Source: Microbacteriaceae bacterium
GTDB taxonomy: Bacteria > Actinomycetota > Actinomycetes > Actinomycetales > Microbacteriaceae
Direction of reading: 5' to 3'
Length of the DNA: 64,000 nt
Assembly (NCBI GenBank): GCA_947443745.1
Contig: CANEXL010000002.1
Coordinates: forward strand, 1 to 64,000
The stretch's first letter is position 1; each line of letters starts with the position of its first letter. A program made the translations under genes and the position numbers. Below are positions 11,947 through 59,013 of the stretch, one piece after another. The notes beneath the pieces are model-generated. The model was not told the origin of the DNA. It saw only the letters and a list, made by a program, of their open reading frames with translations, and made no database searches.

Positions 11947-13206
11947 ATGAGTGACGAGCCACGCACCCGCGCTCGGAGGGTTCACCGCGATTCCGGCGTT
12001 GTGCGCCATGGGCGCCAGCACACTCGCGGCCCCATCCGCACACTCCTCGGTCTTATTGGTGCCGGGCTCGTTGTAGTTTTGGTCAGCGGCGCATCCGTTG
12101 CTGCCGTCGCCGCGTGGGACGTCGCTCGTTCCATCCAACCTGGTGTTGCGCTGGCGAATGAAGCCAGCATTCCGTCCATCGGTGAAATTGAAGGCGGCGT
12201 TAACCTGCTCTTGGTGGGCAGCGATAGCCGTGTGGGAACCGATCCCAACATCTTCGACGTCGATCCCGGCAGCGTCCTCAACGACGTTAACATGCTGCTT
12301 CACATCTCTCAGGACCACAAGAGCGCGACTGTTGTCAGCATCCCGCGTGACATGGTCGTTCACTTTCCCAACTGCCCTGACGGCGGTGGCGGCTGGACAG
12401 GCCCCATTAATGCCACTCTGAACGAGGGCGGGCTGGCATGTGTTGTGCTGACGGTCGAGGCTCTCACTGGTCTCACGATTCCTTTCGCGGCAGAAATTCA
12501 GTTCAACGGCGTCATTGAGATGGCCAATGCCATTGGTGGTGTTGATGTCTGTGTGGCCGATCCCATTCAGGATGAGTACACCCAGACCTTCCTAGACCCC
12601 GGAATTCATACGCTCTCCGGCCTCCCCGCATTACAGTTCTTGCGCACCCGCCACGGCGTGGGCGATGGCAGCGACTTGGGACGCATTTCGAACCAGCAGG
12701 TCTTTCTCTCATCGTTGGTTCGCAAACTGAAGAGTGCGTCAACTCTGACGAACCCCGTCGCTCTTTATGGTCTGGCCAAGGCTGCGGCCAGCAACATGAC
12801 CCTGTCGAACAGTCTGAACAACGTTGACACCATGGTCTCCATCGCGATGGCACTCAAAGACATTCCCCTCGACAGCATCGTGTTCGTTCAGTACCCCGGA
12901 ACCACCGGTGGTGAGGGCGTTTACTCGGGCAAAGTTCAGCCCAACGTGACGGCAGCGGCAGCGTTGTTTGACGCTATTGCGGCCGATCAGCCTGTTGGCC
13001 TTTCGGGAACCACTGGTGTTGGGTCGGTGACGGATCCAAACGCTCCGGCTCCAGCACCCGTTGACCCGGCGGCAACCCCGTCAGCAACGGATGCGGCGAC
13101 TCCGGCGACCACAGCGGCACCGGTCACCGTCTTGCCCGATGCGATCACGGGCCAGACAGCAGGTTCGTTCACATGCTCCAAGGGTCGAACGCTCGACCAG
13201 CAGTAA
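11947..13206 (+). CDS. LCP (LytR-CpsA-Psr) family protein
   Basis: N-terminal TM, 'NLLLVGSDSRVGTD', 'VSIPRDMVVHFPNC', 'FLRTRHGVGDGSDLGRISNQQVFLSSLVRKL'. Confidence 0.9.
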   Translation: MSDEPRTRARRVHRDSGVVRHGRQHTRGPIRTLLGLIGAGLVVVLVSGASVAAVAAWDVARSIQPGVALANEASIPSIGEIEGGVNLLLVGSDSRVGTDPNIFDVDPGSVLNDVNMLLHISQDHKSATVVSIPRDMVVHFPNCPDGGGGWTGPINATLNEGGLACVVLTVEALTGLTIPFAAEIQFNGVIEMANAIGGVDVCVADPIQDEYTQTFLDPGIHTLSGLPALQFLRTRHGVGDGSDLGRISNQQVFLSSLVRKLKSASTLTNPVALYGLAKAAASNMTLSNSLNNVDTMVSIAMALKDIPLDSIVFVQYPGTTGGEGVYSGKVQPNVTAAAALFDAIAADQPVGLSGTTGVGSVTDPNAPAPAPVDPAATPSATDAATPATTAAPVTVLPDAITGQTAGSFTCSKGRTLDQQ

Positions 13207-23283: not shown

Positions 23284-23420
23284 GAGATAAATATATGCCC
23301 GCTGAAACTATTATCGGAAGGGAGACGTGAGCGAGCAATAGCCGGAAAGTGGCAAGAAAGAAGTAAAATCGTTACAGGAGATTCCCAAGGGTGGGGATCG
23401 GGCGAGGTAAACGAGAAATC

Positions 23421-24524
23421 ATGAAGAAGATTGTTATCTGGACAATGGCCATTGCGGTGGCAGCACTCGCAACGGTCGGGCTCGCAACTCCTGCATTCGC
23501 CGCTCCGGTCACGTCCTCCAACGTTGCAACCATCGGCGGAGCCAACTTCGTGTCCACCTCTGCCGATGGAACGATTACGGCTGCGTACTCGGCTGATACG
23601 GGACTTTCGGTTTATAACAGCACGACGGACCAGGTGAGCTCCTACACCGCAATCTTTCTTGGCATGACGCATGTCGGTGAAGCGGTCGTTTCGCCCGATG
23701 GCACCGAAATCTATATTCTCGGAGACAATCCTCAGGCCGTCGCCGTCTTCAATGTCTCCAGCGAGACGGTGACCAGAACCATAGCCTTGCCGTTCTCGGC
23801 ATGGATGGGGGCCATTACCCCCGACGGGTCTACGCTGCTTGTCTACGCCAAAACGACCCAGGAGATTCTCAAAATCGATCTGGGGTCGGACACGGTGAGC
23901 ACCCCACTCAACCTGGGGCTTGATTACCCCTATCAGCTCTGTGTTACCTCCAACGGGTCGACGGTTTATGTTCCCGGCTACGACGCTGGCTATACCTCGA
24001 TTGTTGACATCGGCTCGCTGACGCAGACGGGCACGTTGCCCGACACCGACCAGCCCCTCAACTGTGTGCTCGGTGCCGACGACACATTGTTCATTGGCGA
24101 CTATGCCACGGGTGCCGTTCGCAAGTATGCCGCCGATGGGTCGAACATCGTAAGTGCCGCGGGCTTGGCCGAAGAGATGTATGGAATGGGCCTTACCTGT
24201 AACAGTGTGATCGTCGGGGACTACCAGAACACGGGCTACGCCGTCTTAGACCGCACGACGCTGGAGCAAACGGGATCCATTGCGTCTGAGGTGTACACCT
24301 ACATGATGACGGTAACGGCCGACGCGAAGACCACATGGGTTGGCGGTTATTACGCCGCTCAGGGCCTGCAGTCCATCACCGAGGACAACTGCCCTGTCGC
24401 AGCACCGACACTTCCAAATACGGGGATTAGCTCGCAGGGCGCATTCATGATGACAGGGATTGCCAGCCTTGCGTTAGCTCTTGGGGCTGGCCTGATCATG
24501 CACCGACGCCGAAAGAACTCTTAG
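23421..24524 (+). CDS. Secreted beta-propeller (YncE-like) cell-wall protein with LPNTG sorting signal
   Basis: Signal peptide 'MKKIVIWTMAIAVAALATVGLATPAFA', YVTN-type repeats ('SPDGTEIYILGDNPQAVAVFNVSSETV'), C-terminal 'LPNTG' (24411-24425) + TM + 'HRRRKNS'. Confidence 0.85.
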   Translation: MKKIVIWTMAIAVAALATVGLATPAFAAPVTSSNVATIGGANFVSTSADGTITAAYSADTGLSVYNSTTDQVSSYTAIFLGMTHVGEAVVSPDGTEIYILGDNPQAVAVFNVSSETVTRTIALPFSAWMGAITPDGSTLLVYAKTTQEILKIDLGSDTVSTPLNLGLDYPYQLCVTSNGSTVYVPGYDAGYTSIVDIGSLTQTGTLPDTDQPLNCVLGADDTLFIGDYATGAVRKYAADGSNIVSAAGLAEEMYGMGLTCNSVIVGDYQNTGYAVLDRTTLEQTGSIASEVYTYMMTVTADAKTTWVGGYYAAQGLQSITEDNCPVAAPTLPNTGISSQGAFMMTGIASLALALGAGLIMHRRRKNS

Positions 24525-41812: not shown

Positions 41813-42745
41813 TTAGATCCCTCTTTCCCGAAAGTACGCCAGGGTCCGGGTGAGGCCGTCCTCAATGGAGACGGTCGGCTGCCAGCTAAGAGCCTGTCGC
41901 GCACGATCGATCGCGGGCCGCCGTTGGCGAGGATCATCCGAGGGAAGCGGAAGATTATGGAGGGCTGATTCGGAGCCGGACAGCCCCACGATCATCTCGG
42001 CGAGTTCGGCAATCGTCGTCTCGTGAGGATTGCCGACGTTGAGGGGGCCCGTCACCTCCCTAGGCGTCGCCATGAACCGCACCATTGCCTCGATGAGGTC
42101 GCTGACGAAGCAAAAGCTTCGTGTTTGCGAGCCGTCGCCAAAGATGGTGAGGGGTTCATCGCGAAGGGCCTGACACATCAAGTTACTAATCACGCGACCA
42201 TCGTTGGGCGCCATCCGAGGGCCGTAGGTGTTGAAAATGCGCATCACTTTGATGTCCACGCCGTATTGCCGGTGGTAATCAAAAAACAGAGTTTCAGCGC
42301 ACCGTTTGCCCTCGTCATAACAGCTACGAACACCAATGGGATTTACATTCCCCCAGTAATCCTCCGTCTGGGGGTGAACGATTGGATCACCATAAACCTC
42401 CGACGTTGAGGCCTGAAGAATGGGGATGTTGAGGCGTCGTGCCAGGTTCAACATGTTAATTGCCCCGATGACAATCGTTTGCGTTGTTCGAACCGGATCC
42501 TGTTGGTAGCTGACAGGGGAGGCCGGACAAGCCAGGTTGTAAATTTGATCGACGTCAATCTCAAGGGGCACCGTTACGTCATGGTCGAGAATGTCGAGTC
42601 TCGGGTTGTCGCGATGGTGATCGAGGTTGATTCTTCGGCCCGTTGAGAAATCGTCAATGCACACCACGCTATCGCCGTTGGCGAGGAGGACATCAATCAA
42701 GTGCGAGCCCAGAAAACCGGCCCCACCCGTAACAAGAATTCTCAT
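41813..42745 (-). CDS. NAD-dependent epimerase/dehydratase, UDP-glucuronate decarboxylase (UDP-xylose synthase)-like
   Basis: '[36 protein letters not shown]', '[35 protein letters not shown]', '[10 protein letters not shown]', '[38 protein letters not shown]'. Confidence 0.88.
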
Positions 42746-42829
42746 CGTGATCCAAAATCTAACGTGGTCCTATTGCTCACCGCAGAAACTAGTATTGTTT
42801 AGCCTACTTGACACCATGAAAGGGTTTTT

Positions 42830-43798
42830 GTGACTTCCCCGCTGGTCAGTGTCTTGATTGCGTGCCATAACCACGAGGCGTTCATTGAGCAAGCGTTGGA
42901 TTCTATTGCGGCTCAAGATTTCACCGACTTTGAGCTGATTATCACGGATGATGCCTCGACAGATGCAACCGTGTCGGTTATCCAACAGTGGCTTCAGCGA
43001 ACCGGTTTTCCTGCGGAACTGATCGCCCATCAGACGAACGTGGGAACGTGTGGAACCAGAAATGAAGCGCTCCAGAAGGCTCGCGGAACCTTCGTGTGCT
43101 TCTTGGATGCCGACGACTGGAGCGAACCCCACCGCCTCCGACTTCATACTGAGGCATTCGATTCTTTTCCCGATGACGTTGCCATGATTGTGGGCGAGAT
43201 TCGGGAGGTTACTGAATCGGGTGAACCCCTTCGTAGGCCGACCATTCGCAAGGGCCCCGTGAGCGCATCCACCTTTCTCGACGATGCCTTCCGAGAATTG
43301 TTGGATTCAAATTTTGTCCCCTTCACTGGCGTCATGTTGAGACGACGTTGCGTAAATGACGTTGGTGGTTTTGACGAAGACCTATTCTTGGACGACCATG
43401 ACCTCTGGCTGCGGCTTTCACACAAATTTCGCCTTGCTCGGGTCGGTGGCGTCGTCGCCAGCTACCGAGTTCTGACCAATAGCGTTTCCCACTCCCCCAA
43501 ACTCTTTAAAAAAATTTGGATCTCCAACGTGGGCTCGCTTCGCAAGTGGGTCGGATATTCACCGCTGACAGACGAGATTATTGCTCGGAGGCTCCGAATT
43601 CTGGCGCTGAATATTCGCACGGAAGGCGAGCGCAGTTTTGTGAACGACGTATTCTCTCTCGCACATAAAATCCGTCCCAGCCCTTTCTGGTCTCTCGTGC
43701 GGCAGTTTTCACGGCTGTCGATTGCGGGCGCAGTTTTTAGATTCGCACGGTCACTCAAAAGGCGAGGAATGATGACAGGGTTGGTGGTTAGCGCATGA
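42830..43798 (+). CDS. Glycosyltransferase family 2
   Basis: 'VSVLIACHNHEAFIEQALDSIAAQDFTDFELIITDDASTDATVSVI', 'FVCFLDADDWSEPHRLRLH'; GTG start. Confidence 0.88.
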   Translation: MTSPLVSVLIACHNHEAFIEQALDSIAAQDFTDFELIITDDASTDATVSVIQQWLQRTGFPAELIAHQTNVGTCGTRNEALQKARGTFVCFLDADDWSEPHRLRLHTEAFDSFPDDVAMIVGEIREVTESGEPLRRPTIRKGPVSASTFLDDAFRELLDSNFVPFTGVMLRRRCVNDVGGFDEDLFLDDHDLWLRLSHKFRLARVGGVVASYRVLTNSVSHSPKLFKKIWISNVGSLRKWVGYSPLTDEIIARRLRILALNIRTEGERSFVNDVFSLAHKIRPSPFWSLVRQFSRLSIAGAVFRFARSLKRRGMMTGLVVSA

Positions 43799-45066
43799 GG
43801 ACGAGTCACAGGTGGCGTGTTGAGAATGTTGCCACATATGCATTCCAAGCGCTCTTTATCCTTGGGCTCTACTACACCTGGTATCGCTACCCCTTTAAAA
43901 TCAACGCGAAGAATACGAGCCCGACATATGCAGACACGCCAGCGTGGCTGCAAGGGGGTAAATACATCCTCATCATCGGGGTGCTCCTCGCCGTGGGCGT
44001 GATCGTTGCTGTCGTTGTCTTCAGGTCTCGAGCGCGGATTAATCTGCGTGACCGTGACATCCTGTTTGTGTTCGTTGCGGGAGGTCTTTTCTCTGGGATG
44101 TCCTTGTTTGCGATCATCAAAGGGGTGGTGATTGGTGACACTGATTCGCTGAAGTTAGGGGTCATTCTCGGGGTAGGAATCGTGCTCAGCGCGCTCAGCG
44201 TGGGATGGAAACTCGTCGGACGTCGACTCGTCAAAATCCTTTCGATTTTTGCCATTGTGGTTATCCTTGTCGATGCCGTGCAGATCCTTCTGTACGTGAC
44301 AACTGGTCGCCTTCCCGCATTGGCTTATGCGCATTCCGTGTCTATCCGATTCGGATCGATTCTCGACGATCCCAATGGCCTCGCTTTCCTGATGCCGTTG
44401 CTCCTAGGAGCAGTTTTATTCACATGGAAGCACGCGTTCTGGCGCATCGTGGCCGCGAGTAGCCTCGTGATTGCACTCGTCTTGACACAGTCACTGACGG
44501 GAATCGCGTCGTGTCTTCTTGCGGCTCTCATTGGCACCTTTACGCTCGGCCGGGGCCGCCGCCGCCGCCGTTTCTGGGCTGTTCTTGGTGTCTCGCTGGG
44601 GTTCATGGCAATTCTGTTGGCCGTGTTGCTGCTCTCTGGTATCGGCCAGAAGTTCCTGCAGGCAAAGGCGGGCAGTTTCTTTGCGCACTCGACAGTTCTG
44701 AGTGCCTGGCCACGCCTAGACGTGATGACCCTGCTCGGCCTCAATGGCAGCGTCGTGTCGTCAGAATCGAGCTATCTGAGTCTCGTTCTTCAGTTCGGGT
44801 TGCCCTTTACGTTGGCATACTGTTTTCTCGGTGTTGCAGCGGTGGTCATCTTGCGAAGAGTCATTCGAGCGGACTCGCCGCGCAGGCCACCCATGATCTA
44901 TGTGCTGTTTTACTACTTCCTCATTGCTTTTCTGATCGGCTCGATTAATTTGCGACTGAGCGATGTCTTTCCGGTAAACCTGTTTTACGTGATGGGAATT
45001 GCGGTGAGCGTCTTCGCTGTCGTGGCGAGTCGCAGAAAAGAGCGAGACGTTGCTGTTATCGATTAG
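43795..45066 (+). CDS. O-antigen polymerase/ligase-like (Wzy-like) polytopic membrane protein
   Basis: 10+ TM segments with a loop 'SVSIRFGSILDDPNGLAFLMPLL' typical of Wzy/WaaL; ATGA overlap with upstream GT2. Confidence 0.75.
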   Translation: MRTSHRWRVENVATYAFQALFILGLYYTWYRYPFKINAKNTSPTYADTPAWLQGGKYILIIGVLLAVGVIVAVVVFRSRARINLRDRDILFVFVAGGLFSGMSLFAIIKGVVIGDTDSLKLGVILGVGIVLSALSVGWKLVGRRLVKILSIFAIVVILVDAVQILLYVTTGRLPALAYAHSVSIRFGSILDDPNGLAFLMPLLLGAVLFTWKHAFWRIVAASSLVIALVLTQSLTGIASCLLAALIGTFTLGRGRRRRRFWAVLGVSLGFMAILLAVLLLSGIGQKFLQAKAGSFFAHSTVLSAWPRLDVMTLLGLNGSVVSSESSYLSLVLQFGLPFTLAYCFLGVAAVVILRRVIRADSPRRPPMIYVLFYYFLIAFLIGSINLRLSDVFPVNLFYVMGIAVSVFAVVASRRKERDVAVID

Positions 45067-46882
45067 AGCATCGCTAGCGCTCCTGAGCCGACGCGAGAGG
45101 GCGACTTATTATTTCCTCATCGCGTGCAAGGTTTTGTCGAGCCTTCTCGATCTCTTGGGCATCGCCTCCATTGGGGTTCTGGTGGGGTTGGCATCAACAA
45201 CCTTGGCTTCGGAGCGCTCGTTGGTCGTTCTGGGCCTGACATTCCCGACTCCGACGAGTGGCATGATCGTCGGTTTGGCCGTCGTCGTTCTCGGCCTCTT
45301 CATCGCTAAAGGCGTTCTCGCCATCCTGTTGTCGCGGCGCCTGTCACGTTTTCTTGCGCATCTCGACGGCGTAAACGCCCAGCGCATCACGGACTCTTTT
45401 CTGAACGGTGACTTGAACGACCTTCAGAAGCACACCCGAGAGGGCCTGAACTGGACCGTTCTGGAGTCGACAACGAGCGCATTTTCATCGACGCTCCTTA
45501 ACTTCGCCACCGTGATCTCTGAGACGTCACTCCTGATCTTCATTGGTGCGATGTTCTTTTTTGTCAACCCGATTGCGACGGCTTTTACACTCGCTTATTT
45601 CGCGCTTCTCATTGGCCTGATGGAGGCCATCATCGGTCGAATGAGTGCCCGAGCGGGCCGAAACTATAGCCAAGGGGTGCAGCGGACAGCGGGCTCCCTC
45701 AACGACATTCAGAACACCTTTCGCGAAATTTCGGTCCTTCAGCGCCAGGCGTACTTTAGTGACCGCGTGGCTCAGGAACGTACCCGTGTGGCAGACGGTT
45801 TCGGCATGATGAAGCTCCTGCAAACAATGCCGCGCTACATCGTGGAGACTGCTCTGATGGTGGGCGTTGTGGGATTTGTAGGGTGGCAGTTTCTCTCGGG
45901 TGGTCTTCAAGATGGAGGCGCCATCATTGGTATCTTCCTCGCTGGTGGCGTCAGAATCATGGGCTCTGCATTGCCACTTCAAAACGCTCTGGCTTCCCTC
46001 AAGAATCAAGTTGGTCAGTCACGTCAGGCTCAGGACATTCTCAAGACCCTTGCTGACTCTCGGCACGACGGTCAGGACAGCCCAGTGGGGCACGCGGTCG
46101 TCGGGGAGGATGCGACACTGTCTTCACCCCCCTCATCTTCTGCGTTGGAGGTGTCGCTGGAGAAAGTGAATTTTTCTTACCCCGGTTCGAACACCCCAAC
46201 GCTTCGTAATGTTTCGCTCGTGGTTAAACCAGGGCAGCACGTCGCCATCATTGGGCCGTCGGGGGCGGGAAAGACAACCCTTGTCGACCTGATTCTTGGG
46301 CTTCTTCCGGTGGAGAGCGGCAGTATTTTCCTCGACGGAGTGCCTCCCAGAGTGCTGAGCCAGGCACGGCCGGGCATCATTTCTTATGTGCCACAGCGGC
46401 CGGGAATCGTTGCCGGTACGATCGCCGAAAACATCGCCTTGGGCGTTGCCCCGCACGACATTGATTTCGATCGAATCAATGAGGTCGTGTCCATGGCATT
46501 CCTTGACGACTTCGTCAAGGGGGCTTCAGAGGGCGTGAACTCTCCCGTGGGTGCGCAGCTGTCTGCTCTCAGCGGCGGGCAGATTCAGCGCCTGGGCTTG
46601 GCAAGGGCGCTATACCCGAGACCAAAACTCCTCATTCTGGATGAGGCCACCAGCGCCTTGGATGCCGGCTCTGAGTCCGTCGTCGCCCAGAGCCTCAAAG
46701 ACCTCGGTGCCGATGTCACCGTCATCGTTGTTGCTCATCGCCTCTCTACTGTGCAGCATTCTGACACGGTATTTCTTCTCGACGCCGGCGAAATTGTTTC
46801 CTCCGGAACCTTTCAACACCTGCGAAAGACGGTGCCCCTCATTGAGGAGTACGTCTCGTTGATGTCGTTCGATGACGAGTAG
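45050..46882 (+). CDS. ABC transporter, fused permease/ATPase (PglK/MsbA-like polysaccharide flippase candidate)
   Basis: N-terminal TM domain; 'GPSGAGKTTLVDLILGLLPVESGSIFLDG', 'LSGGQIQRLGLARALYPRPKLLILDEATSALD'. Confidence 0.9.
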   Translation: MLLSIRASLALLSRRERATYYFLIACKVLSSLLDLLGIASIGVLVGLASTTLASERSLVVLGLTFPTPTSGMIVGLAVVVLGLFIAKGVLAILLSRRLSRFLAHLDGVNAQRITDSFLNGDLNDLQKHTREGLNWTVLESTTSAFSSTLLNFATVISETSLLIFIGAMFFFVNPIATAFTLAYFALLIGLMEAIIGRMSARAGRNYSQGVQRTAGSLNDIQNTFREISVLQRQAYFSDRVAQERTRVADGFGMMKLLQTMPRYIVETALMVGVVGFVGWQFLSGGLQDGGAIIGIFLAGGVRIMGSALPLQNALASLKNQVGQSRQAQDILKTLADSRHDGQDSPVGHAVVGEDATLSSPPSSSALEVSLEKVNFSYPGSNTPTLRNVSLVVKPGQHVAIIGPSGAGKTTLVDLILGLLPVESGSIFLDGVPPRVLSQARPGIISYVPQRPGIVAGTIAENIALGVAPHDIDFDRINEVVSMAFLDDFVKGASEGVNSPVGAQLSALSGGQIQRLGLARALYPRPKLLILDEATSALDAGSESVVAQSLKDLGADVTVIVVAHRLSTVQHSDTVFLLDAGEIVSSGTFQHLRKTVPLIEEYVSLMSFDDE

Positions 46883-47840
46883 TGCGCCCTCGGTTGAGCC
46901 GGATTCTCAAGAGAAATGACTGAAGGAGGGTGACCCTCGTGTCAATTGAGGGTGACGTCAGCGGGCCAGCAGGACGTGCGCTGGCCTGAGCGCCGACCTT
47001 CCATCCCCGAATTCTCTCGGTCAGCGCTATCGTGTCGCGGTACTTCGCGAGACTTCCGATGCATCGGAGGATCTCAATTGTGATGACCCGAGCAGCAACT
47101 CGGCCGTTGAGAAGGCGATAGGCGCGAATGATGTAGCCGCGGCTAAAAGATGTGTAACGGCGTTGGCGGGCGGAGTGCAGCTCGACGGTTGCGCCTGAGG
47201 CATGGGTGACCCGCGACTGTGGTGCGGCCACAATCTTCCATCGCGCGCTGGTGAGGCGAAGTGCGAGGTCGAGTTCTTCTTGATACATGAAGATGTTCTC
47301 ATCGAACAGTCCCACATCGTCGAGAGCTATTCGACGGAATCCAGCGGCGGCGCCGTAGGCTCCGCAGAGAAGAAACGACTCATCATCGAGGTTCTCAAGG
47401 GGCTCGTTCTTGAGACGATGGTGCCCCGAAAGAGTGCGATCGATGGTGAATCCCAGCGCTTCGATTCGGCCATCTAATGTGAGCACAAGGGGGGCAACAG
47501 AGCCAATGCTCTCATCTTGGTCAAAGGCTGCCGCAATTTCTTCGAGGAAGGCGGGTTCTGCCGTGGTGTCGTTGTTGAGAAGGACAACGATTGGAGCAGT
47601 ACCAGCACGAATCCCGGCATTGCAGGCGGTTCCGAAGCCGCTGTTGTGCGCCAGCGTGACAACGGTCACGTCAGGAAAATAACGCGCGATCTCCTGCCCC
47701 GTTTCGTCCCCTCCGGCATCGTCAACGACAATTACGTTGTGGCGAACCGACTGTTGCCGGAGTGATAACAGGCACTCGCGTGTCAGATTCCACTTGCCGT
47801 GCACGGGGATGATGACATCAATCGAAGCGTCGTGTCTCAT
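46839..47840 (-). CDS. Glycosyltransferase family 2 (rhamnosyltransferase-like)
   Basis: 'IDVIIPVHGKWNLTRECLLSLRQQSVRHNVIVVDDAGGDETGQEIARYFPDVTVVTLAHNSGFGTACNAGI'; start MRHDAS, 4-nt overlap with upstream gene stop. Confidence 0.88.
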   Translation of the reverse strand: MRHDASIDVIIPVHGKWNLTRECLLSLRQQSVRHNVIVVDDAGGDETGQEIARYFPDVTVVTLAHNSGFGTACNAGIRAGTAPIVVLLNNDTTAEPAFLEEIAAAFDQDESIGSVAPLVLTLDGRIEALGFTIDRTLSGHHRLKNEPLENLDDESFLLCGAYGAAAGFRRIALDDVGLFDENIFMYQEELDLALRLTSARWKIVAAPQSRVTHASGATVELHSARQRRYTSFSRGYIIRAYRLLNGRVAARVITIEILRCIGSLAKYRDTIALTERIRGWKVGAQASARPAGPLTSPSIDTRVTLLQSFLLRIRLNRGRTTRHRTTSTRRTPQ

Positions 47841-49057
47841 GACGGTGTGACCTCTTTCGCCACCCATGCTGCGATTCGGGCGTGAAAAATCTCCATGGAG
47901 AAATCGCGAGCACGCTGGTGACAGGCCGCCGCCGTGATCCGAGGAATGGTCGCCCAGGCGCGGCGCATTTCGGTGGGCGTGAAGTCGCCGAGGAGAATCC
48001 CCGTGACGCCGTCAACAACGGTTTCCGCTGCGCCGCCCCGACGCAGAGCAACGACGGGCGTTCCTGTGGCCATTGCCTCGACGGGCATAATGCCGAAGTC
48101 TTCCACGGCAGGAAAAATGTAGGCCTCGGCTCGGCGATACAGCTCCCGAAGAAGTGAGCGGCTCGGGGTGTCGACGAAATGAACTCTGCCGGCATGGCGT
48201 AGCGCACGTTTTTCTAGGTGAGCACGCTCGGGGCCGCTGCCGGCCAGGACGACATCCGTATTTGTAGCGATCCCGAAGTCAATTACGAGGTCGAGCCTTT
48301 TGTAGGAAATGAAACGGGATGCTCCTAAGACGAACTGCCCAGGGAGGCCGCTAAGGGTGAGACGGTCGGCCCGTGTGAGAGGGGAAGGCGACCCCGAATC
48401 TTGAGCGGAACCGGAACCGGAACCGGAACCGGAACCGGAACCGGAACCGGAACCGGAACCCGAACCGGTATCGGAGTCGGTGACCGCGCTGCTGCCGGCG
48501 AAGTAGTCGACGTCGACGGGAGGGTAGATCACGACAGAGTCCCGCCCCCAGTAAGCGCGAACACGCTCCGCGACGGCCTTACTGTTGACCGCAATGCTGG
48601 TCAGTTCCTGGGCGCGGCGGCGGTCAAGGGCTCTTAGCGGCAGAGCGACCAATCGGGCCACAAACGATGACCCGCGTTCGTCGAGCTCAGGCGACCAGAC
48701 ATAGCGGGCTGGTGTGTGAACATAGGCCAGCCGGGGAACATTTCTGGCAGCACCGCGAAATCGAACGTGGTGAGCAAAGAGGTGAGTGCTGGCGAGACTC
48801 CATGTGGGAGGTGCGGGGAGTGGGTTCCTCACGCTGCGCCAGACGGCCGGCATCAGAAGCAGTGCCAGTGCCTTTGCCCCTCGTAATGGTGTTCGAGCGA
48901 GCCAGGTTTCGTGAACGCGCCCGGCGGCAAATCGTTGGGGAGCGTCATCCCACAAGCAGACGATGGGGGCATCAGGAAAGATGCGGCTCAGTTGCTCCAG
49001 AACGTTCTCCGAGCCGCCCGTCTTCGCGAGCCACTCGTGCACCAAAATCCCGGTCAC
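47837..49057 (-). CDS. Glycosyltransferase family 4 (GT-B) with internal (SG)n linker
   Basis: 'ILVHEWLAKTGGSENVLEQLSRIFPDAPIVCLWDD', 'VYIFPAVEDFGIMPVEAMATGTPVVALRRGGAAETVVDGVTGIL'-type GT4 motifs; GTG start overlapping upstream stop. Confidence 0.87.
   Translation of the reverse strand: MTGILVHEWLAKTGGSENVLEQLSRIFPDAPIVCLWDDAPQRFAAGRVHETWLARTPLRGAKALALLLMPAVWRSVRNPLPAPPTWSLASTHLFAHHVRFRGAARNVPRLAYVHTPARYVWSPELDERGSSFVARLVALPLRALDRRRAQELTSIAVNSKAVAERVRAYWGRDSVVIYPPVDVDYFAGSSAVTDSDTGSGSGSGSGSGSGSGSGSGSAQDSGSPSPLTRADRLTLSGLPGQFVLGASRFISYKRLDLVIDFGIATNTDVVLAGSGPERAHLEKRALRHAGRVHFVDTPSRSLLRELYRRAEAYIFPAVEDFGIMPVEAMATGTPVVALRRGGAAETVVDGVTGILLGDFTPTEMRRAWATIPRITAAACHQRARDFSMEIFHARIAAWVAKEVTPS
48407..48460. 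repeat. Perfect tandem hexanucleotide repeat (GGAACC)x9
   Basis: 54 nt of uninterrupted GGAACC read directly from the sequence, followed by degenerate copies; encodes (Ser-Gly)n on the minus strand. Confidence 0.97.
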
Positions 49058-50073
49058 ACCGAAACCGAATTCGTCGCCAGAACGCGCAAAAGAGTCTCGT
49101 TCACGATGGCCGCCACGCGATCCCACGAGTATTTCTCCCACCAATCGTGAGAGAGCTCGCTGGGGGCCAGGGGTCCGAGCTCCACGAGATGATCGAGAGC
49201 GTTGGCCCAGGATGATCCGCGTGTCGCATCCGCTACGACAACCGACGTTGAGTCACAGATCTCGGCCACACTTTCGCACTCTTTCCAGTGTGCAACGCGA
49301 GTTCCGCAGGACATAGCCTCCAGGGCGGGAAGGCCGAATCCTTCCACCAGAGAAGGCACCACGGTGCCGACCGATCCCCGATAAAGAGCTGCGAGCTCCT
49401 CGTCGGTCACGCCGGATTCCACACTCACGCGCTCTTCCAAGCCACGTTCACGGATCAGGGATGCCGCCCGAGCAGTATCGGGTGTGACAATAACGAGATC
49501 GTATTCGGGCCGCAGCACGCACGCATCGAGCAATGTTGCGAGGTTCTTGTGGGGTCGGATGCCGCTCACGAACACAAACGTGGGGCGCGTGAACGACCGT
49601 CGAGCACCCTCTCTGGTGAAAGCTGCCGAACGACCGCATCCGGTAATGACAATCTCCACGTTCGCGGAACCGACCCATTCCCTCATTTCGTTCGCCGATG
49701 CCTGGGAGACAGTCAGCACGACACCGCTGCGCTTCACGACCATCGGTAACAAGAAGCGAAAGTACAGGGCGCGAAGGGGGGAAATCCGCGAGGAATGATG
49801 GAGGTGAATGAGGTCGTGCATGGTGATGACCTGGCGAGCTCGTGTGATGCTCAGGTTGAAGCCGGGGGAGTAGAGGACATCTTGCGGCGAAAGAGCCAGG
49901 CGCTTTCGGGAGAGGACTCCACTCATGCTCATGGGTTTACCCGCCACCGCAAGGGGTTCGGCGGCAAGGCTCAATCGAGAAAGAACCTCGGTCGCATAAC
50001 GACCGATACCGTGGGCCCCCGACCAGCGGTCATCGACAATCACACGGCCAGGGCGACGCTCGAGCGCTGGCAT
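49054..50073 (-). CDS. Glycosyltransferase family 4/1 (GT-B, mannosyltransferase-like)
   Basis: 'DDRWSGAHGIGRYATEVLSRL', 'FVFVSGIRPHKNLATLLDACVL', 'VPSLVEGFGLPALEAMSCGTRVAHWKECESVAEICDSTSVVV'; start at MPALERRP. Confidence 0.87.
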   Translation of the reverse strand: MPALERRPGRVIVDDRWSGAHGIGRYATEVLSRLSLAAEPLAVAGKPMSMSGVLSRKRLALSPQDVLYSPGFNLSITRARQVITMHDLIHLHHSSRISPLRALYFRFLLPMVVKRSGVVLTVSQASANEMREWVGSANVEIVITGCGRSAAFTREGARRSFTRPTFVFVSGIRPHKNLATLLDACVLRPEYDLVIVTPDTARAASLIRERGLEERVSVESGVTDEELAALYRGSVGTVVPSLVEGFGLPALEAMSCGTRVAHWKECESVAEICDSTSVVVADATRGSSWANALDHLVELGPLAPSELSHDWWEKYSWDRVAAIVNETLLRVLATNSVSV

Positions 50074-50075
50074 CG

Positions 50076-51539
50076 TCAGATTGCCCCGGTGTGCAGCACA
50101 ACGGATCGCAAGGTGCGCCACATCAAAATGATGTCGCCCGTGATCGACCAGTTTTCGACGTAGTACAGATCCAACCGGATGGATTCCTCCCACGAGAGAT
50201 TTGACCGACCGCTGACTTGCCAGAGGCCCGTCATTCCGGGCTGCACGAGGAGTCTGCGCCGGGCAGAGTCGTCGTAGAGTGCGACTTCCATCTCTCGCTG
50301 CGGACGAGGGCCAACCAGGCTCATGTTGCCGATCAGCACGTTGAAGAGTTGGGGGAGTTCGTCGAGGGAATACTTTCGCAAGAAGCCACCGGCGGGGATA
50401 ATTCGCGGGTCAGCGGTGACCTTGAAAAAGGGAACGCTCCCGTTGTTCTGAGCGTGCAAGAGATCGGCGAGCTGGGCATCCGCGTTCACAATCATGGTGC
50501 GAAATTTCCACACCGTGAACGGGCGTTGGTTGAGCCCAATTCGTTCTTGACCGTACAAGACGGGCCCCGGGCTCGTGAGCATCACAATGGCACTCACCAC
50601 AAGCATCACGGGAGATAACAGAACGATCAAAACACTTGCCACAACGATGTCGAAGAATCGCTTGGCGAATTTTGGGCGGCCTTCAAAGATGGGGGAGTCA
50701 ATGTGCAGGAGGGGAAGTCCGGCGACAGGGCGAACGTGAATGCGCGGCCCGCCAACATCCATCAGGCTGGGCGCCACGATGAGGTTGTGGTGAAAGGGTT
50801 CGAGGTTCCAGCTCAGACGTCTCACTTCCTCTGGCGTCAGTAAGTCGGCGCTCGTCACGATGAGGGTGTCTGCTCCTACCGCCTCCATGGCCGACTGCGC
50901 ATCGTGGATGCCACCAAGAATGGGGATATCGGTTTCGGGTAGTCGGGTCAACATGTCGTTGGCTCGCGCCTCGGCGCCACTGACGCACGCCCCCATGATG
51001 ACGTAGCCAAAATCAGTGTTCTTCAGGAGCACTTGAGCGACCGTGCTGCTGGATGCGACAGAGCCGACGAGGAGAACTTTGGAGCAGTACAGACCGCGCG
51101 CACGCTGTTGGCGCAGCCACTGGCGTGACATCCAGCGAACAAAAAGGAGCGTCACCAAGCCCGCTGGCAGGGCGATCAAGATATAACCGCGAGCGAGTTG
51201 AATTTGAAGCAGGTAAGACACGATTGCGACCAGCCCGAATAGCCACATGGTCGATGTCGCAACGAGACGATATTCCTGGCTGCCAGCGCCGACAACTTTT
51301 GCCGTTCGACTTCCAAAGACGGTCAGAACAGTCACCCAGGCGATGATGATGATGGCCGAAACCGTGAAATAGCTTCCGATGATGTTCGGCGCGGAGCCTC
51401 GGAAAGAGACTTCTCGAGCGCTGAAACCGAGCCATGCCAGTTGGACAGCAAAAACAACCCACACCAAGGCCAAGATGTCGATGACGAGGAGGCGACGAGC
51501 GTAGCTCTTCTGCCACATACTGACGGACTCCATCGACAA
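50076..51539 (-). CDS. Polyprenyl glycosylphosphotransferase / undecaprenyl-phosphate sugar transferase (WbaP/ExoY-like)
   Basis: Four N-terminal TMs + CoA-binding-like domain + C-terminal 'KRFFDIVVASVLIVLLSPVMLVVSAIVMLTSPGPVLYGQERIGLNQRPFTVWKFRTMIVNAD...SLDELPQLFNVLIGNMSLVGPRPQRE'. Confidence 0.96.
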   Translation of the reverse strand: MSMESVSMWQKSYARRLLVIDILALVWVVFAVQLAWLGFSAREVSFRGSAPNIIGSYFTVSAIIIIAWVTVLTVFGSRTAKVVGAGSQEYRLVATSTMWLFGLVAIVSYLLQIQLARGYILIALPAGLVTLLFVRWMSRQWLRQQRARGLYCSKVLLVGSVASSSTVAQVLLKNTDFGYVIMGACVSGAEARANDMLTRLPETDIPILGGIHDAQSAMEAVGADTLIVTSADLLTPEEVRRLSWNLEPFHHNLIVAPSLMDVGGPRIHVRPVAGLPLLHIDSPIFEGRPKFAKRFFDIVVASVLIVLLSPVMLVVSAIVMLTSPGPVLYGQERIGLNQRPFTVWKFRTMIVNADAQLADLLHAQNNGSVPFFKVTADPRIIPAGGFLRKYSLDELPQLFNVLIGNMSLVGPRPQREMEVALYDDSARRRLLVQPGMTGLWQVSGRSNLSWEESIRLDLYYVENWSITGDIILMWRTLRSVVLHTGAI

Positions 51540-51683
51540 GGCGCCCTCACTGAGTCGAAATTGGTTAACTTAAATGATTACCTGATTCTACATAGAGGAT
51601 TCCGCCCTTCGGAGAGTTGCTTCAGAGTTCTGGGCGAGCCGAGGAAGTGTGCATTCTGCGGCCTGCGGTAAGTTTGCGAGGTG

Positions 51684-52403
51684 ATGAGCAAAATCAGTTT
51701 TGGCAGCAGGAGAGCGGGTTGGCTGACGGCAGCCGCCGCTGGCCTTTTTGTCTCGATGGCACTGGTTGCGCTGCTTGATTTTTCCCCTCCACTGGCCGTA
51801 CCTCCGGCCCTTGCTGAGGCGATCGGGTATCTCGTCGTCTTCATTCCGTTGGTGGCCGCCATCACCTTTGCCACTCTTTTTCGAGGACAGCGGTCGCTGG
51901 CCCGGGATTTCGGGTTTTCGGCTACGTGGACAGATGTTGTGCTCGGCGTTGCGCTCGGACTCGCTTTGCGGGTTGCTGGAATGTGGTTCGAAGTTGCGAT
52001 GTATGGCATTCGCCTCAACGGAGGCTCGACGGGGATTCCACGAGCCCAGTGGCTCGCGTGGGTGCTTTTGGCGGTCATTGCGCCCATCATTCTGGCGCCC
52101 CTTATTGAAGAACTCTTCTTTCGCGGTCTTGTCCTTCGCGGCCTCCTGAGGTGGGGCACGCGCAGAACTCTCTCCCCGCGGCTTTCGGCGGTGGTGGCCA
52201 TCGTGGTGAGTTCGCTGATTTTCATGCTGGTGCACCTGATTGGCGTTCATTCCCCGCGACAGGTCATTCTCATTGGCGTGATGACATTCGTCGTGGGATG
52301 CACGGCAGCGGTCATGGCCGTGAAAACCGGGCGCCTGGGGGCAAGCTTCGCCTTGCACATGACCTACAACGCCACCATTCTGATTCCCGCCCTTCTCGCC
52401 TAA
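51684..52403 (+). CDS. CPBP family intramembrane metalloprotease (Abi/CAAX-like)
   Basis: 'APLIEELFFRGLVLRGLLRWG' (EExxxR) and 'FMLVHLIG' plus multiple TMs. Confidence 0.9.
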   Translation: MSKISFGSRRAGWLTAAAAGLFVSMALVALLDFSPPLAVPPALAEAIGYLVVFIPLVAAITFATLFRGQRSLARDFGFSATWTDVVLGVALGLALRVAGMWFEVAMYGIRLNGGSTGIPRAQWLAWVLLAVIAPIILAPLIEELFFRGLVLRGLLRWGTRRTLSPRLSAVVAIVVSSLIFMLVHLIGVHSPRQVILIGVMTFVVGCTAAVMAVKTGRLGASFALHMTYNATILIPALLA

Positions 52404-52413
52404 GGTAATCCAC

Positions 52414-54276
52414 GTGAGTTCTGAACACCCCGACTCCCCGCCCCGTCAGCGCGACAGCGGAGCCCGTCATCGCTCTGGTAAAAATCCGGGGATGCGCCAC
52501 GGCCGACGTCGTTCGCGCAGGATCTGGGTTCCCATCGTTGTCAGCGTGGGCGCTCTTCTCCTTGCGGCGATGGCGTGGATGGGCGTTCGGGGCTACCTGG
52601 CTTACACAGAGCTCTCGCAACTCCAGCCGCTGGCCGCCACACTAAAAGATGGGCTGACGGCGGGCAACGTTCAGGATTCCGGACCCCAGGTTGATGCTCT
52701 CGTTCGGCACGCCGTCTCGGCTCAGGAACTGACGGGAGATCCTCTGTGGGGAGCCGCCGAACTCATTCCCTATCTGGGCCCGAATCTCGCGGCGGTGCGC
52801 ACCATTTCTGCCGCCGCGGCGGACCTCGCCACGCAGGTGGTGGAACCTCTGATGACCGTGTCACAGACCACAAAGCTTGCTGATCTGAAACCCGTGAATG
52901 GGCACATCAACACGGATGCTTTGGCGGCCGCACAGCCCCAGTTGGCGGCGGCGGCGACGGTGGCCGCGCAGGTCGATGGCGCTGTAGCCGCTATCGATGA
53001 ATCACAACTGCTGGGCCCATTGGCAACGCAAGTGCAGTCGGCATCCGACCTTCTCCACACGGTGAGCAGTGGCGTGACCGCTTTGAGCAATGCGGCGACA
53101 CTCGTGCCGAACATGCTCGGCGCCTCGGGTGAACGCAACTACGTCGTCATTGTTCAAAATAATGCCGAGCTCCGAGCAACGGGAGGTGTTCCCGGTGCCC
53201 TCGCGATGCTCCACACAGACCACGGCGTGGTGACGTTGACGCGACAGTCCTCCACGACGGCCATTCAAGAGTTCGCGAAACCGGTCATTTCTCTCCCGCA
53301 GGGCACGATCAATGTGTTCGGGCCCAATCCGGCAAAGGTCTTGCAGGACACGACCATGACGCCAGATTTTTCGGTCACGGCTCAAAGCGTGAGCGCCATG
53401 TGGCAGAAGACCTACGGGCTGGTTCCCGACGGCGTGCTCTCCCTTGATCCGGTGACGCTCAGCTACCTTTTGGCGGCGACGGGACCGGTGACGTTGCCAA
53501 CGGGGGAAAAGCTTTCAGCAGGCGACGCAGCAGAACTACTGCTACACGACGTCTACATTAATTACCCTGACCCCCGGACACAGGATTCATTTTTCGCAGG
53601 AACGGCCGAGGCCGTCTTCGCGAAGATTGCGAAGGGCGGCAGTAATTCCAATGCCCTTCTCTCCGCGCTGACGCGCGCAGGTTCAGAAAATAGGGTTTTC
53701 ATCTGGAGTGCCCAGCAAACTGAGCAATCCCTCCTTGCGGGCTCAACGCTTGAGGGAATTCTTCCCCAGCCTCGCATCGGGGCGTTCGGGGTGTATCTCA
53801 ATGACGAGACCGCCGCCAAGATGGATTACTACCTCACGACTCAGATTCAGTCTGGTGCCGTCGGATGTCGCGCAGATGGCAAGCAAACCTCTGTTGTGAG
53901 CGTCACACTCACAAATGGAGCCCCAGCCGATGCGGCGACGAGCCTTCCCGGCTACGTGACGGGGGCGGGCATTCACGGCACACCGCCGGGTAATATTCGA
54001 ACCTCTATTGTGGTGTACGGAGCGTCCGCGGAGCAGGGCGTGTGGGGCGAAGTTCTCGAGAACGGTCAACACCGTGACTCCTTTGTCACCACCGATGGAG
54101 AGCACAGCGTCATTCAGTCCACGGTCGAATTGACGCCCGGGCAATCCCGAACAATAACGTTCAGGATGCTGAGCAACGCTGTCGGTTCCCACAGCCTGTC
54201 ACTGCTGACGACTCCTCTGCTAACTAAAGTCACCCCCACCACTCTTGCGGAATCGTGTTCGTTGGCTCTAAAATAA
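52414..54276 (+). CDS. DUF4012 domain-containing membrane-anchored protein
   Basis: N-terminal TM, 'GERNYVVIVQNNAELRATGGVPGALAMLHTDHGVVTL', 'DPVTLSYLLAATGPVTLPTGEKLSAGDAAELLLHDVYINYPD' DUF4012 hallmarks. Confidence 0.9.
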   Translation: MSSEHPDSPPRQRDSGARHRSGKNPGMRHGRRRSRRIWVPIVVSVGALLLAAMAWMGVRGYLAYTELSQLQPLAATLKDGLTAGNVQDSGPQVDALVRHAVSAQELTGDPLWGAAELIPYLGPNLAAVRTISAAAADLATQVVEPLMTVSQTTKLADLKPVNGHINTDALAAAQPQLAAAATVAAQVDGAVAAIDESQLLGPLATQVQSASDLLHTVSSGVTALSNAATLVPNMLGASGERNYVVIVQNNAELRATGGVPGALAMLHTDHGVVTLTRQSSTTAIQEFAKPVISLPQGTINVFGPNPAKVLQDTTMTPDFSVTAQSVSAMWQKTYGLVPDGVLSLDPVTLSYLLAATGPVTLPTGEKLSAGDAAELLLHDVYINYPDPRTQDSFFAGTAEAVFAKIAKGGSNSNALLSALTRAGSENRVFIWSAQQTEQSLLAGSTLEGILPQPRIGAFGVYLNDETAAKMDYYLTTQIQSGAVGCRADGKQTSVVSVTLTNGAPADAATSLPGYVTGAGIHGTPPGNIRTSIVVYGASAEQGVWGEVLENGQHRDSFVTTDGEHSVIQSTVELTPGQSRTITFRMLSNAVGSHSLSLLTTPLLTKVTPTTLAESCSLALK

Positions 54277-54328: not shown

Positions 54329-54862
54329 ATGAAGAAAATTATCTTGGCGGGAGTCATCGCAGCGCTCGCGCTGGTATCCCTCCCGGCGGCGAGTTTTGCG
54401 TACGGTGGAGGAAGTCCCGTCGTCACGGGAACTGTTGCGCCCACCGAAACCGTCACTGTCGACTGGCCCGCGGGCTTTTTTGAAGGTGGTGAACTGGTGA
54501 CCGTTGAGGTTACCTGCACAGCGGGCTCGCCGACGATCAACAACGAATTGGCTCCGCCCGTCATCTTCCGGGCCGTATCGAGCGGCACGTATGAGACCAC
54601 AGGGGCCGGTGCCTTTAGCCTGAACCTCACGTTGCCCGCCGGAGACTTCGGAACGTGTAGCTGCCAGGTCCTCGGATTGCGATCGGACACCACGGGAACG
54701 ACAGATTTGGCCTATGTGCCAGGTGCGGCCATTCCCTACACCGGCTTTGATACCGGCCTGTATGTCTGGACGGGAGCGGGAGTCCTCGTTCTGGGCGTTG
54801 CCCTCGTCACGATTGTGATGGCCCGCCGCAGATCTCAGTCCAAGGAACAAGCGAAGACCTAG
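54329..54862 (+). CDS. Small secreted surface protein, tandem paralogue 1, C-terminal IPYTG sorting-like signal
   Basis: Signal peptide 'MKKIILAGVIAALALVSLPAASFAYGGGSPVVTGTVAPTETV'; C-terminal 'IPYTGFDTGLYVWTGAGVLVLGVALVTIVMARRRSQSKEQAKT'; ggagg RBS. Confidence 0.85.
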   Translation: MKKIILAGVIAALALVSLPAASFAYGGGSPVVTGTVAPTETVTVDWPAGFFEGGELVTVEVTCTAGSPTINNELAPPVIFRAVSSGTYETTGAGAFSLNLTLPAGDFGTCSCQVLGLRSDTTGTTDLAYVPGAAIPYTGFDTGLYVWTGAGVLVLGVALVTIVMARRRSQSKEQAKT

Positions 54863-54918
54863 GTCTCAGTCTCGGTCTCAGCCTCGGTTTCATGGCTGTG
54901 ATGTAGACGCTTCATGAC

Positions 54919-54952
54919 GAACGCCCCGAGGCAACTCGGGGCGTTCTCTTTT
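54919..54952 (+). terminator. Rho-independent terminator of paralogue 1
   Basis: GAACGCCCCGAG-gcaa-CTCGGGGCGTTC-tctttt, 12-bp perfect stem. Confidence 0.9.
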
Positions 54953-55111
54953 CCACCGCTGAAAACTGAGCCAGGCCCTCGGGGGCGTCCTGGAGCCATT
55001 TTTGTTTGGCCGGGAATTGGGCTTGATGAAACCTGTCAAACTACCCTAAAATAAAAACTGCCCGACCTGTTGAGTCCCAATGCTTTTCCCCCTCCCCCTA
55101 AAGGAAACGTC

Positions 55112-55654
55112 ATGAAGAAATTGATTTTGGCTGGAGTTCTCGCCGCCGTCGCGCTTGTCTCCCTGCCCGCCGCAAGTTTCGCCTACGGCAGCGGAAGCCC
55201 CGTCGTCAACGGCACTGTTGGCCCCTCGAAGACGGTGAGCGTGGATTTTCCCGCTGGATACTTTTCTGACACCGACACTCTTACGACGGTCATCACCTGC
55301 ACCGCAGGCGAAGTGACCATCTTGAACACCGAGTTTGTTCCGGTCGGAATATTTCACGCACCTCGACTCTTCCCCGATCCTCCCTATTACCAGGCCACCG
55401 CTTCGGGGGCATTCAGTCTTCAGCTGACGCTTCCCGCGAGTGACTTTGGCACGTGCAGCGTCACTGTTTCTGGATACAACTCCGGGATTTCGGGTTCGGC
55501 AGACATCGCGTATGTTCCAGCCGAAGCCGTGGCGTACACGGGCTTCGATGCCGGACTGTACATCTGGACGGCATCCGGCGTTATCGTTCTGGGAGGCGCC
55601 TTGATCTCGGTTATGGTAACTCGCCGCAAGGCCCACGCGAAGGCTTCTGCCTAG
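55112..55654 (+). CDS. Small secreted surface protein, tandem paralogue 2, C-terminal VAYTG sorting-like signal
   Basis: 'MKKLILAGVLAAVALVSLPAASFAYGSGSPVVNGTVGPSKTVSVDFPAGYF...VAYTGFDAGLYIWTASGVIVLGGALISVMVTRRKAHAKASA'. Confidence 0.87.
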   Translation: MKKLILAGVLAAVALVSLPAASFAYGSGSPVVNGTVGPSKTVSVDFPAGYFSDTDTLTTVITCTAGEVTILNTEFVPVGIFHAPRLFPDPPYYQATASGAFSLQLTLPASDFGTCSVTVSGYNSGISGSADIAYVPAEAVAYTGFDAGLYIWTASGVIVLGGALISVMVTRRKAHAKASA

Positions 55655-55670
55655 CCTTGAGAAATCATTG

Positions 55671-55709
55671 AATAGTTCGCCCCGAGGAGACTCGGGGCGA
55701 ACTATTTCG
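55671..55709 (+). terminator. Rho-independent terminator of paralogue 2
   Basis: AATAGTTCGCCCCGAG-gaga-CTCGGGGCGAACTATT, 16-bp perfect stem. Confidence 0.85.
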
Positions 55710-55822
55710 TTATCCGGGGAATGGGACTTGATGAAACCTGAGAAATTACCCTAAAATCAAATATGTAGGGGCTAAACCAGCCCCAAAGGTTTATCCCCCC
55801 TCTCTCCCCCGAAGGAAACATC

Positions 55823-56350
55823 ATGAAAAAATTAGTCCTGGCAGGAGTCTTGGCCGCCATCGCGCTGGTCTCTCTCCCCGCCGCAAGTTTCGCCTACGGC
55901 AGCGGTAGCCCCGTTGTTACCGGTACGGTTGCCCCCACGAAGACGGTCAGCGTTGATTTTCCCGTCGGATTCTTTGCGAATTCCGAAATCGTCGCGATGA
56001 CGGTCTCCTGCACCAGTGGGGACGCAGAGGTTTTGAACACCCCTGCACTCGCGATCGTTCGCGCTTTTCCTGGCGGCCCTTACTACGAGGCATCAGGGGA
56101 CGGCTCGTTCAGCCTTCAACTGACATTGCCCTCCGCTGACTTCGGAACCTGCACCGTCACCTACGACGCCGAGACGTTGATCGCCACGGGCACCGTTGAC
56201 CTGGCCTACGTTCCGGCTGCGGCCGTGGCCTACACGGGCTTTGATGCCGGACTGTACATCTGGACTGCTGCGGGCGTCATCGTCCTGGGTGGGGCCTTGA
56301 TCTCGGTCATGGTTGCTCGTCGCAAAGCGCAGACGAAGGCTTCCGCCTAG
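55823..56350 (+). CDS. Small secreted surface protein, tandem paralogue 3, C-terminal VAYTG sorting-like signal
   Basis: 'MKKLVLAGVLAAIALVSLPAASFAYGSGSPVVTGTVAPTKTVSVDFPVGFF...VAYTGFDAGLYIWTAAGVIVLGGALISVMVARRKAQTKASA'. Confidence 0.87.
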   Translation: MKKLVLAGVLAAIALVSLPAASFAYGSGSPVVTGTVAPTKTVSVDFPVGFFANSEIVAMTVSCTSGDAEVLNTPALAIVRAFPGGPYYEASGDGSFSLQLTLPSADFGTCTVTYDAETLIATGTVDLAYVPAAAVAYTGFDAGLYIWTAAGVIVLGGALISVMVARRKAQTKASA

Positions 56351-56364
56351 TCTTCACGAATTGT

Positions 56365-56406
56365 AAAAGAGCACGCCCCGAGGTCAACTCGGGGCGTGCT
56401 CTTTTT
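56365..56406 (+). terminator. Rho-independent terminator of paralogue 3 (possibly bidirectional with phrB)
   Basis: AAAAGAGCACGCCCCGAG-gtcaa-CTCGGGGCGTGCTCTTTTT, 18-bp perfect stem. Confidence 0.92.
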
Positions 56407-57977: not shown

Positions 57978-58140
57978 ATTCACCAAGAGTGTTTTGCAAT
58001 CACATTCAACAGTCGATCACCACAGCAAATGATCGGTGCAGAATTAGAATATAACGAAGAGGTAACGGAAAGCTAGTCTTTTTCGTTACCAATTTGAGAT
58101 AAAAGCATTTTTCTTTTGTGAGCCTATTTTTGCGGACCAT

Positions 58141-58226
58141 TCTGCCGGGGTCTGCCGGGGTCTGCCGGGGTCTGCCGGGGGCCTGTCGGGGGTTTGTCGG
58201 TGTCTGTTGGGGGCTGCCGGGGTCCG
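58141..58226. repeat. Tandem decamer repeat (TCTGCCGGGG)x4 plus degenerate copies
   Basis: Four perfect copies at 58141-58180, then gcctgtcggg/ggtttgtcgg/tgtctgttgg/gggctgccgg variants. Confidence 0.92.
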
Positions 58227-58318
58227 AAGCGGCTGGCAGGACTACCCTCGCCGGAAATCCGCGAGGAAAAGATAGCACTATGATATCATTCTGGTTACAC
58301 ACAACGGAAGGCCGTCTC

Positions 58319-58600
58319 GTGACATCAATCCTGGTGCGCAACCTAGAAGAAGACGTGAAGCTGGGGATCAAAGAACGCGCCCGTCGCAATGGGCGCTCCA
58401 TGGAGGCAGAGGTTCGCGCCATTTTGGCGGCTGCTGTCCTGAGCTCTCAGACTTCTCCGCAGTCAGAAGACGACCTCGCAATGCTTGGCGCTCGAATCCG
58501 CGCGCGTTTCGCCCACATTGACACGGAGGGTTTAGTTTTCCCCAGATCAACAGAACTCGTCAGTGGCGCGTCGATCTTCGAGGAAGACTCGCCTGAGTGA
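58319..58600 (+). CDS. FitA/VapB-like Arc-type ribbon-helix-helix antitoxin (GTG start)
   Basis: 'MTSILVRNLEEDVKLGIKERARRNGRSMEAEVRAILAAAV' typical FitA N-terminus; GTGA overlap with PIN toxin. Confidence 0.83.
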   Translation: MTSILVRNLEEDVKLGIKERARRNGRSMEAEVRAILAAAVLSSQTSPQSEDDLAMLGARIRARFAHIDTEGLVFPRSTELVSGASIFEEDSPE

Positions 58601-59013
58601 TCATTATCGATACAAACGTGGTGTCAGAGCTCGCTCGCAAGAGCCAGCATCCGCGATTCGTGTCATGGTTTGACCGCCATGTTGGCCGCGACCTTTTCCT
58701 GACCGCCACCATTGTTGGTGAACTCATTCGGGGAGTGGCAGCTCTTCCTCTGGGAAGGCGCAAACTGGAATTGACGGCATCGGTCATGGATGTGGTTCTG
58801 CAAGATTTTGCCCACTTTGTGTTGCCATTCGACCGCCTCGCCGCCTATGAGTGGGGTCATCTTGTTGTGCGGGAGCAGTTGCGGGGGCGAACGCTGAGTT
58901 TTGCGGACAGTCAAATTGCAGCGGTCTGCCTCGCCCAGGGTGCTTCGTTGGCCACGCGGAACACCAAAGACTTCGAGGGACTCGGTATCGATCTCATCGA
59001 TCCGTGGGTCTGA
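58597..59013 (+). CDS. PIN-domain ribonuclease toxin (VapC/FitB family)
   Basis: 'IIIDTNVVSELARKSQHPRFVSWFDRH', 'TLSFADSQIAAVCLAQGASLATRNTKDFEGLGIDLIDPW'. Confidence 0.92.
   Translation: MIIIDTNVVSELARKSQHPRFVSWFDRHVGRDLFLTATIVGELIRGVAALPLGRRKLELTASVMDVVLQDFAHFVLPFDRLAAYEWGHLVVREQLRGRTLSFADSQIAAVCLAQGASLATRNTKDFEGLGIDLIDPWV

Follow-up and report, generated by a model that had tools for sequence, protein, structure and literature searches.

A tandem array of small proteins with sortase-type tails behind a DUF4012 gene in a Microbacteriaceae exopolysaccharide cluster

The window, the whole stretch of 64,000 nucleotides that was analysed, carries three tandem genes which are best explained as lineage-specific duplicates of a protein that exopolysaccharide clusters normally encode once, after their DUF4012 gene. 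On balance, their products are probably class-E-sortase-anchored Ig-like surface proteins, associated with matrix or exopolysaccharide and partnered with DUF4012 at the interface between cell wall and exopolysaccharide. An earlier sequence-only reading had recognised the paralogues but had missed both the linkage to DUF4012 and exopolysaccharide genes and how widely the family occurs. The retention of exopolysaccharide on the wall of the Microbacteriaceae and the function of DUF4012 appear to be undescribed, and a literature search recovered no paper on the pairing of DUF4012 with a small protein; the conserved pair would give DUF4012 a concrete partner and offers an addressable family of surface proteins.

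The tandem genes and the layout of the array

The array borders an exopolysaccharide cluster, immediately following its DUF4012 gene (Table 1). The extent of the array and the motif positions (54731, 55529 and 56225) given in the sequence-only reading proved exact, and all three paralogues are intact, each with a signal peptide, a single domain, an [IV][AP]YTG motif, a transmembrane (TM) helix and a terminal RRK or RRR. A Sec-type N terminus (MKK...AASFA) can be read in the sequence of all three copies, and a helix precedes the ordered domain in the predicted structure. The signal peptide, as had been claimed, and the tail are near-identical among the three copies, while copies 2 and 3 each share approximately 59% identity with copy 1 and 67% with one another. 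The cysteine pair (CTxG...FGTC) described as conserved is kept in the trio but is missing from its relatives, some of which contain a different cysteine pair. The three proteins form a single clade with a support of 1.0, and YTGFD occurs at a fourth genomic position, which falls within an unrelated ORF and does not represent a further copy.

Table 1. Features of the array and its surroundings in the window
Feature	Position	Strand	Remarks
Glycan/exopolysaccharide cluster	41813..51539		epimerase, glycosyltransferases, ABC transporter ATPase, priming sugar transferase
CPBP/Rce1-like membrane protease	51681..52403	+	occasional neighbour only (11/80 loci)
DUF4012 protein	52414..54276	+	conserved partner; predicted LCP-like fold
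Copy 1 ORF	54329..54862	+	177 aa; signal peptide, predicted Ig-like domain, IPYTG tail, TM, RRR
IPYTG sorting-signal-like motif, copy 1	54731..54745	+	
Terminator-like hairpin after copy 1	54919..54946	+	repeat D4
Promoter-like site before copy 2	55023..55052	+	TTGATG-18-TAAAAT; repeat D5; consensus match only
Copy 2 ORF	55112..55654	+	180 aa; VAYTG tail
VAYTG motif, copy 2	55529..55543	+	
Hairpin after copy 2	55671..55706	+	I4
Promoter-like site before copy 3	55728..55757	+	consensus match only
Copy 3 ORF	55823..56350	+	175 aa; VAYTG tail
VAYTG motif, copy 3	56225..56239	+	
Hairpin after copy 3	56365..56405	+	I3

A near-identical strong hairpin (CGCCCCGAGG..CTCGGGGCG) follows each of the three copies, and the same promoter-like block (TTGATG-18 nt-TAAAAT) precedes copies 2 and 3. 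Copy 1 starts 52 bp past the DUF4012 stop codon and is probably co-transcribed with the DUF4012 gene. Given the shared hairpins, the block common to copies 2 and 3 and the position of copy 1 close behind DUF4012, the array looks like a duplicated unit with its own terminator, to which a promoter may have been added later.

The ectodomains had been reported to diverge more than the ends, and substitution rates bear this out: between copies 2 and 3, dN reaches 0.455 in the ectodomain against 0.05 at either end, with dS at 0.84-1.53 throughout, indicating that selection, and not recent gene conversion, keeps the ends alike. The ectodomain of these two copies is relaxed, without overall positive selection (dN/dS ~0.3). 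The structure predicted for copy 3 (pLDDT 84.6) comprises one seven-stranded Ig-like sandwich (residues 31-128) and a C-terminal helix (residues 142-174), which supports the Ig-like half of the suggestion that an Ig-like or pilin fold might be present; a fold search with the small protein returned weak, generic beta-sandwich matches, none at E <= 0.001, and no pilin-like fold. By sequence, the PDB yielded a match to Fc receptor-like protein 5, which was set aside as a generic Ig-repeat hit, of which only insignificant single stretches are left with a wider profile. The tandem paralogues and their divergent ectodomains had also invited comparison with pilins assembled by a sortase or with a surface array that varies antigenically. 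This is now very improbable, as each protein consists of a single predicted Ig-like domain, no pilin-associated (class C) sortase was found at the locus, one copy per locus is the usual state of the family, and the ectodomain dN/dS does not exceed 1 as antigen-like diversification would predict.

Distribution of the family and its linkage to DUF4012

The sequence-only reading had proposed searching other genomes with a profile of the trio, and such a profile recovers relatives from 35 of the 200 genomes of the family that were searched; with one built from 28 relatives, 79 members are strong and full-length, and these come from 55 Microbacteriaceae genomes. The trio alone retrieved no relatives in a profile search of a contig collection, where a DUF4012 query succeeded. 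Named loci occur in Agreia, Leifsonia, Curtobacterium, Cryobacterium, Clavibacter, Plantibacter, Herbiconiux, Agromyces and others, and also in Sinomonas, a member of the Micrococcaceae; Okibacterium fritillariae, a relative that can be cultured, has a single copy at the locus. Members outside the Microbacteriaceae are few in a class-wide sample, in which 12 of 198 genomes contain members (E <= 1e-12) and most of the strong ones are Microbacteriaceae. The one other genome of the genus that was searched (G083) encodes neither DUF4012 nor the small proteins, a point against the favoured reading; it has sortase matches and almost no sortase substrates. Tandem sets of two to four copies are present at ten DUF4012 loci of the sample, the window included, so that the trio is one case of a recurrent trend that extends to other genera.

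The earlier statement that the proteins belong to no known family holds at the curated cut-offs of Pfam and NCBIfam, where the trio produced only sub-threshold matches to tail models and, for copy 1, to a phage tail tube model (PF18906, E 1e-3), which was rejected as a match under the cut-off in a single member. Similarly, no ectodomain family reaches its cut-off in searches of the relatives against Pfam and NCBIfam. The family is unnamed and uncharacterised.

Its genomic setting is near-constant. Of the 79 strong members, 69 are encoded less than 6 kb downstream of a DUF4012 gene on the same strand, mostly adjacent to it, and DUF4012 is present in all 55 genomes with strong members as compared to 101 of the 200 overall (Fisher p 2e-21, a value that ignores shared ancestry). 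The linkage persists through many genera and is also evident in the reverse direction: among 80 loci of the closest DUF4012 relatives, fetched independently with a DUF4012 profile, 78 carry the small family gene, nearly always just downstream, and 61 have polysaccharide genes within approximately 6 kb. More distant DUF4012 genes, such as those of Streptomyces and on Rhodococcus plasmids, are likewise found in polysaccharide clusters, where the annotations list no small protein of this type adjoining them. The near-constant gene order in these soil- and plant-associated actinobacteria (Microbacteriaceae and Sinomonas) suggests that DUF4012 and the small protein work together at the cell surface.

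The CPBP protease gene adjacent to DUF4012 in the window resembles those of myxosortase-type proteases, with NCBIfam matches to MrtJ and Mrt_core, and its product might accordingly have been supposed to process the tails. These scores lie under the cut-offs, however, direct reading of the tails reveals no Cys-containing MYXO-CTERM-like signal, and a CPBP gene occurs at only 11 of the 80 loci, a linkage too rare for a processing enzyme, so that this role is rejected as scarcely credible.

Sorting tails and sortases

At the C terminus of the trio, motif, hydrophobic helix and positively charged tail follow one another in the order of a sorting signal, and the relatives (160-200 aa) share this layout. 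Across 59 diverse members the motif reads L (51 members), A (38) or P (20), a variable X, T (53) and G (58), and its information content exceeds that of the ectodomain; the TM helix then opens with a Trp that is almost invariant (52/59). Architecture thus supports the trio as sortase substrates. In two of the three copies the second motif position (P3) is Ala and in one Pro, and neither is an obstacle, since the recognition motif of class E sortases is LAXTG in Streptomyces, where the chaplins ChpA-C are substrates (PMC5148588), and apparently LPVTG in the Actinoplanes proteins CwpA, CwpB and SspA (PMC13251363). The Ile or Val at the first position (P4), where 51 of the 59 relatives have Leu, is unusual, and sortase cleavage of these variants is accordingly putative. 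The tails of several relatives weakly match NF058582 (Microco_LAVTG tail domain) and TIGR01167 (LPXTG anchor); the former is a mere 34-aa tail model whose cut-off is reached by no member checked, while for the latter copy 1 scores 16.9 bits against a cut-off of 15.9, and copies 2 and 3 fall under it.

Like class E substrates, the trio has a Sec signal peptide and, at the C terminus, an L[AP]xTG-like motif ahead of a TM helix and a basic tail, and its genome encodes a class E sortase. It differs from those of Streptomyces and Actinoplanes in that its ectodomain is predicted to be a single Ig-like sandwich of ~100 aa, its genes follow DUF4012 in exopolysaccharide clusters and P4 is Ile or Val. 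As had been observed, no sortase is encoded in the window, and both PF04203 matches of the genome are on other contigs. The class E enzyme that the sequence-only reading had proposed to look for was found (NF033747, 206.6 bits against a cut-off of 160), its gene adjoining a pabA/trpG-type gene and a PASTA-domain gene. The second match, a 442-aa protein (contig C82, locus L002, 1123-2448, minus strand) encoded behind a secreted-type membrane protein, has extra C-terminal TM segments, no catalytic TLxTC motif and no evident catalytic Cys, and is possibly a sortase-derived non-enzyme. At least seven other proteins of the genome carry C-terminal tails of the typical LPxTG/LAxTG type (LPNTG, LATTG, LSSTG, LANTG), with Leu as the first motif residue in all seven of those read. 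Within the window, a 377-aa secreted protein (23391-24524, plus strand) with an LPNTG-TM-RRRK tail and repeats resembling a beta-propeller is probably another sortase substrate. The earlier proposal of a sortase-type tail is therefore largely upheld by the class E sortase, the other substrates and the L[AP]xTG motif of the family, and qualified by the atypical Ile/Val of the trio itself.

Sortases are present in 185 of 200 family genomes, and their co-occurrence with the family by itself says little. The most direct sortase link is found in Curtobacterium ammoniigenes, where a class E sortase gene directly follows the DUF4012 and small-protein pair. In several Cryobacterium loci (L097, L098, L106, L107, L110 and L132, at ~7700-8370), the copy adjacent to DUF4012 has Ala in place of the motif Thr, e.g. 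LASAG, while a second family copy ~5 kb upstream retains an intact motif. Anchoring may possibly have been lost in one paralogue, and would then not be kept everywhere.

The small proteins could alternatively be membrane-retained accessory subunits of a DUF4012 complex, held non-covalently by an uncleaved TM helix that pairs with the membrane helix of DUF4012, the TG motif being vestigial. The well-conserved TM segment (W147, G151, G156), the very tight gene linkage, the persistence of the Thr-to-Ala variants in Cryobacterium and the atypical P4 of the trio are all compatible with such subunits. The motif Thr and Gly are, however, among the most conserved positions, with a variable X as a sorting signal predicts, and a sortase gene adjoins the pair in one relative; we regard membrane retention as unlikely, though deserving of some weight.

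Predicted fold of DUF4012 and the proposed role of the pair

The DUF4012 protein was modelled with a pLDDT of 89.5 and a pTM of 0.85, and LytR-CpsA-Psr (LCP) structures dominate its best Foldseek matches in the PDB (2xxq, 3tep, 6uf3 (TagV) and 6mpt (TagT)), with probabilities of 0.96-1.0 and TM-scores to the target of 0.33-0.48. An LCP-like fold is thus probable on the basis of this model. Aside from the predicted fold, DUF4012 shares with the LCP glycopolymer transferases a single N-terminal TM helix, an extracytoplasmic domain and a polysaccharide cluster setting, but it has an additional N-terminal helical region and a C-terminal beta-rich region. Profile-profile comparison with PF03816 (hhalign) yielded a local alignment in the expected register with a best E of 0.07, which is not significant, and homology to LCP proteins by this criterion was rejected; a Pfam scan detected DUF4012 in all members and the LCP model in none. 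When the conservation lines are compared by eye, the matching places of DUF4012 show no evident counterpart of the arginines that never vary in LCP domains. DUF4012 may thus be an LCP-fold protein with different or lost chemistry.

In the favoured reading of sortase-anchored proteins partnered with DUF4012, the class E sortase would attach the trio proteins to peptidoglycan through the [IV][AP]YTG-TM-RRK tail, DUF4012, as a membrane-anchored extracytoplasmic protein, would handle lipid-linked polysaccharide, which the anchored Ig-like protein would retain, organise or present. A bolder and rather doubtful extension is that DUF4012 is a divergent LCP-type ligase for which the sortase-anchored protein is the acceptor of exopolysaccharide, or a helper in anchoring it. 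If true, the pair would constitute a dedicated two-part capsule-retention system in which a protein, rather than only peptidoglycan, serves as the attachment site. In the portion of the published description that was consulted, the EPS/CPS cluster of Bifidobacterium longum does not list a small sortase-type protein beside its DUF4012 gene (BL105A_0406), unlike the window; as in the window, however, DUF4012 is part of an exopolysaccharide cluster there, beside a priming sugar transferase (PMC5412050).

Two further loci were observed in the window. An ordinary LCP (PF03816) protein is encoded at 11947-13206 on the plus strand, between two tRNA-Ser genes. At 58118-59013, also on the plus strand, two overlapping small ORFs resemble by eye a VapBC/FitAB-type toxin-antitoxin pair, the second being PIN-domain-like.
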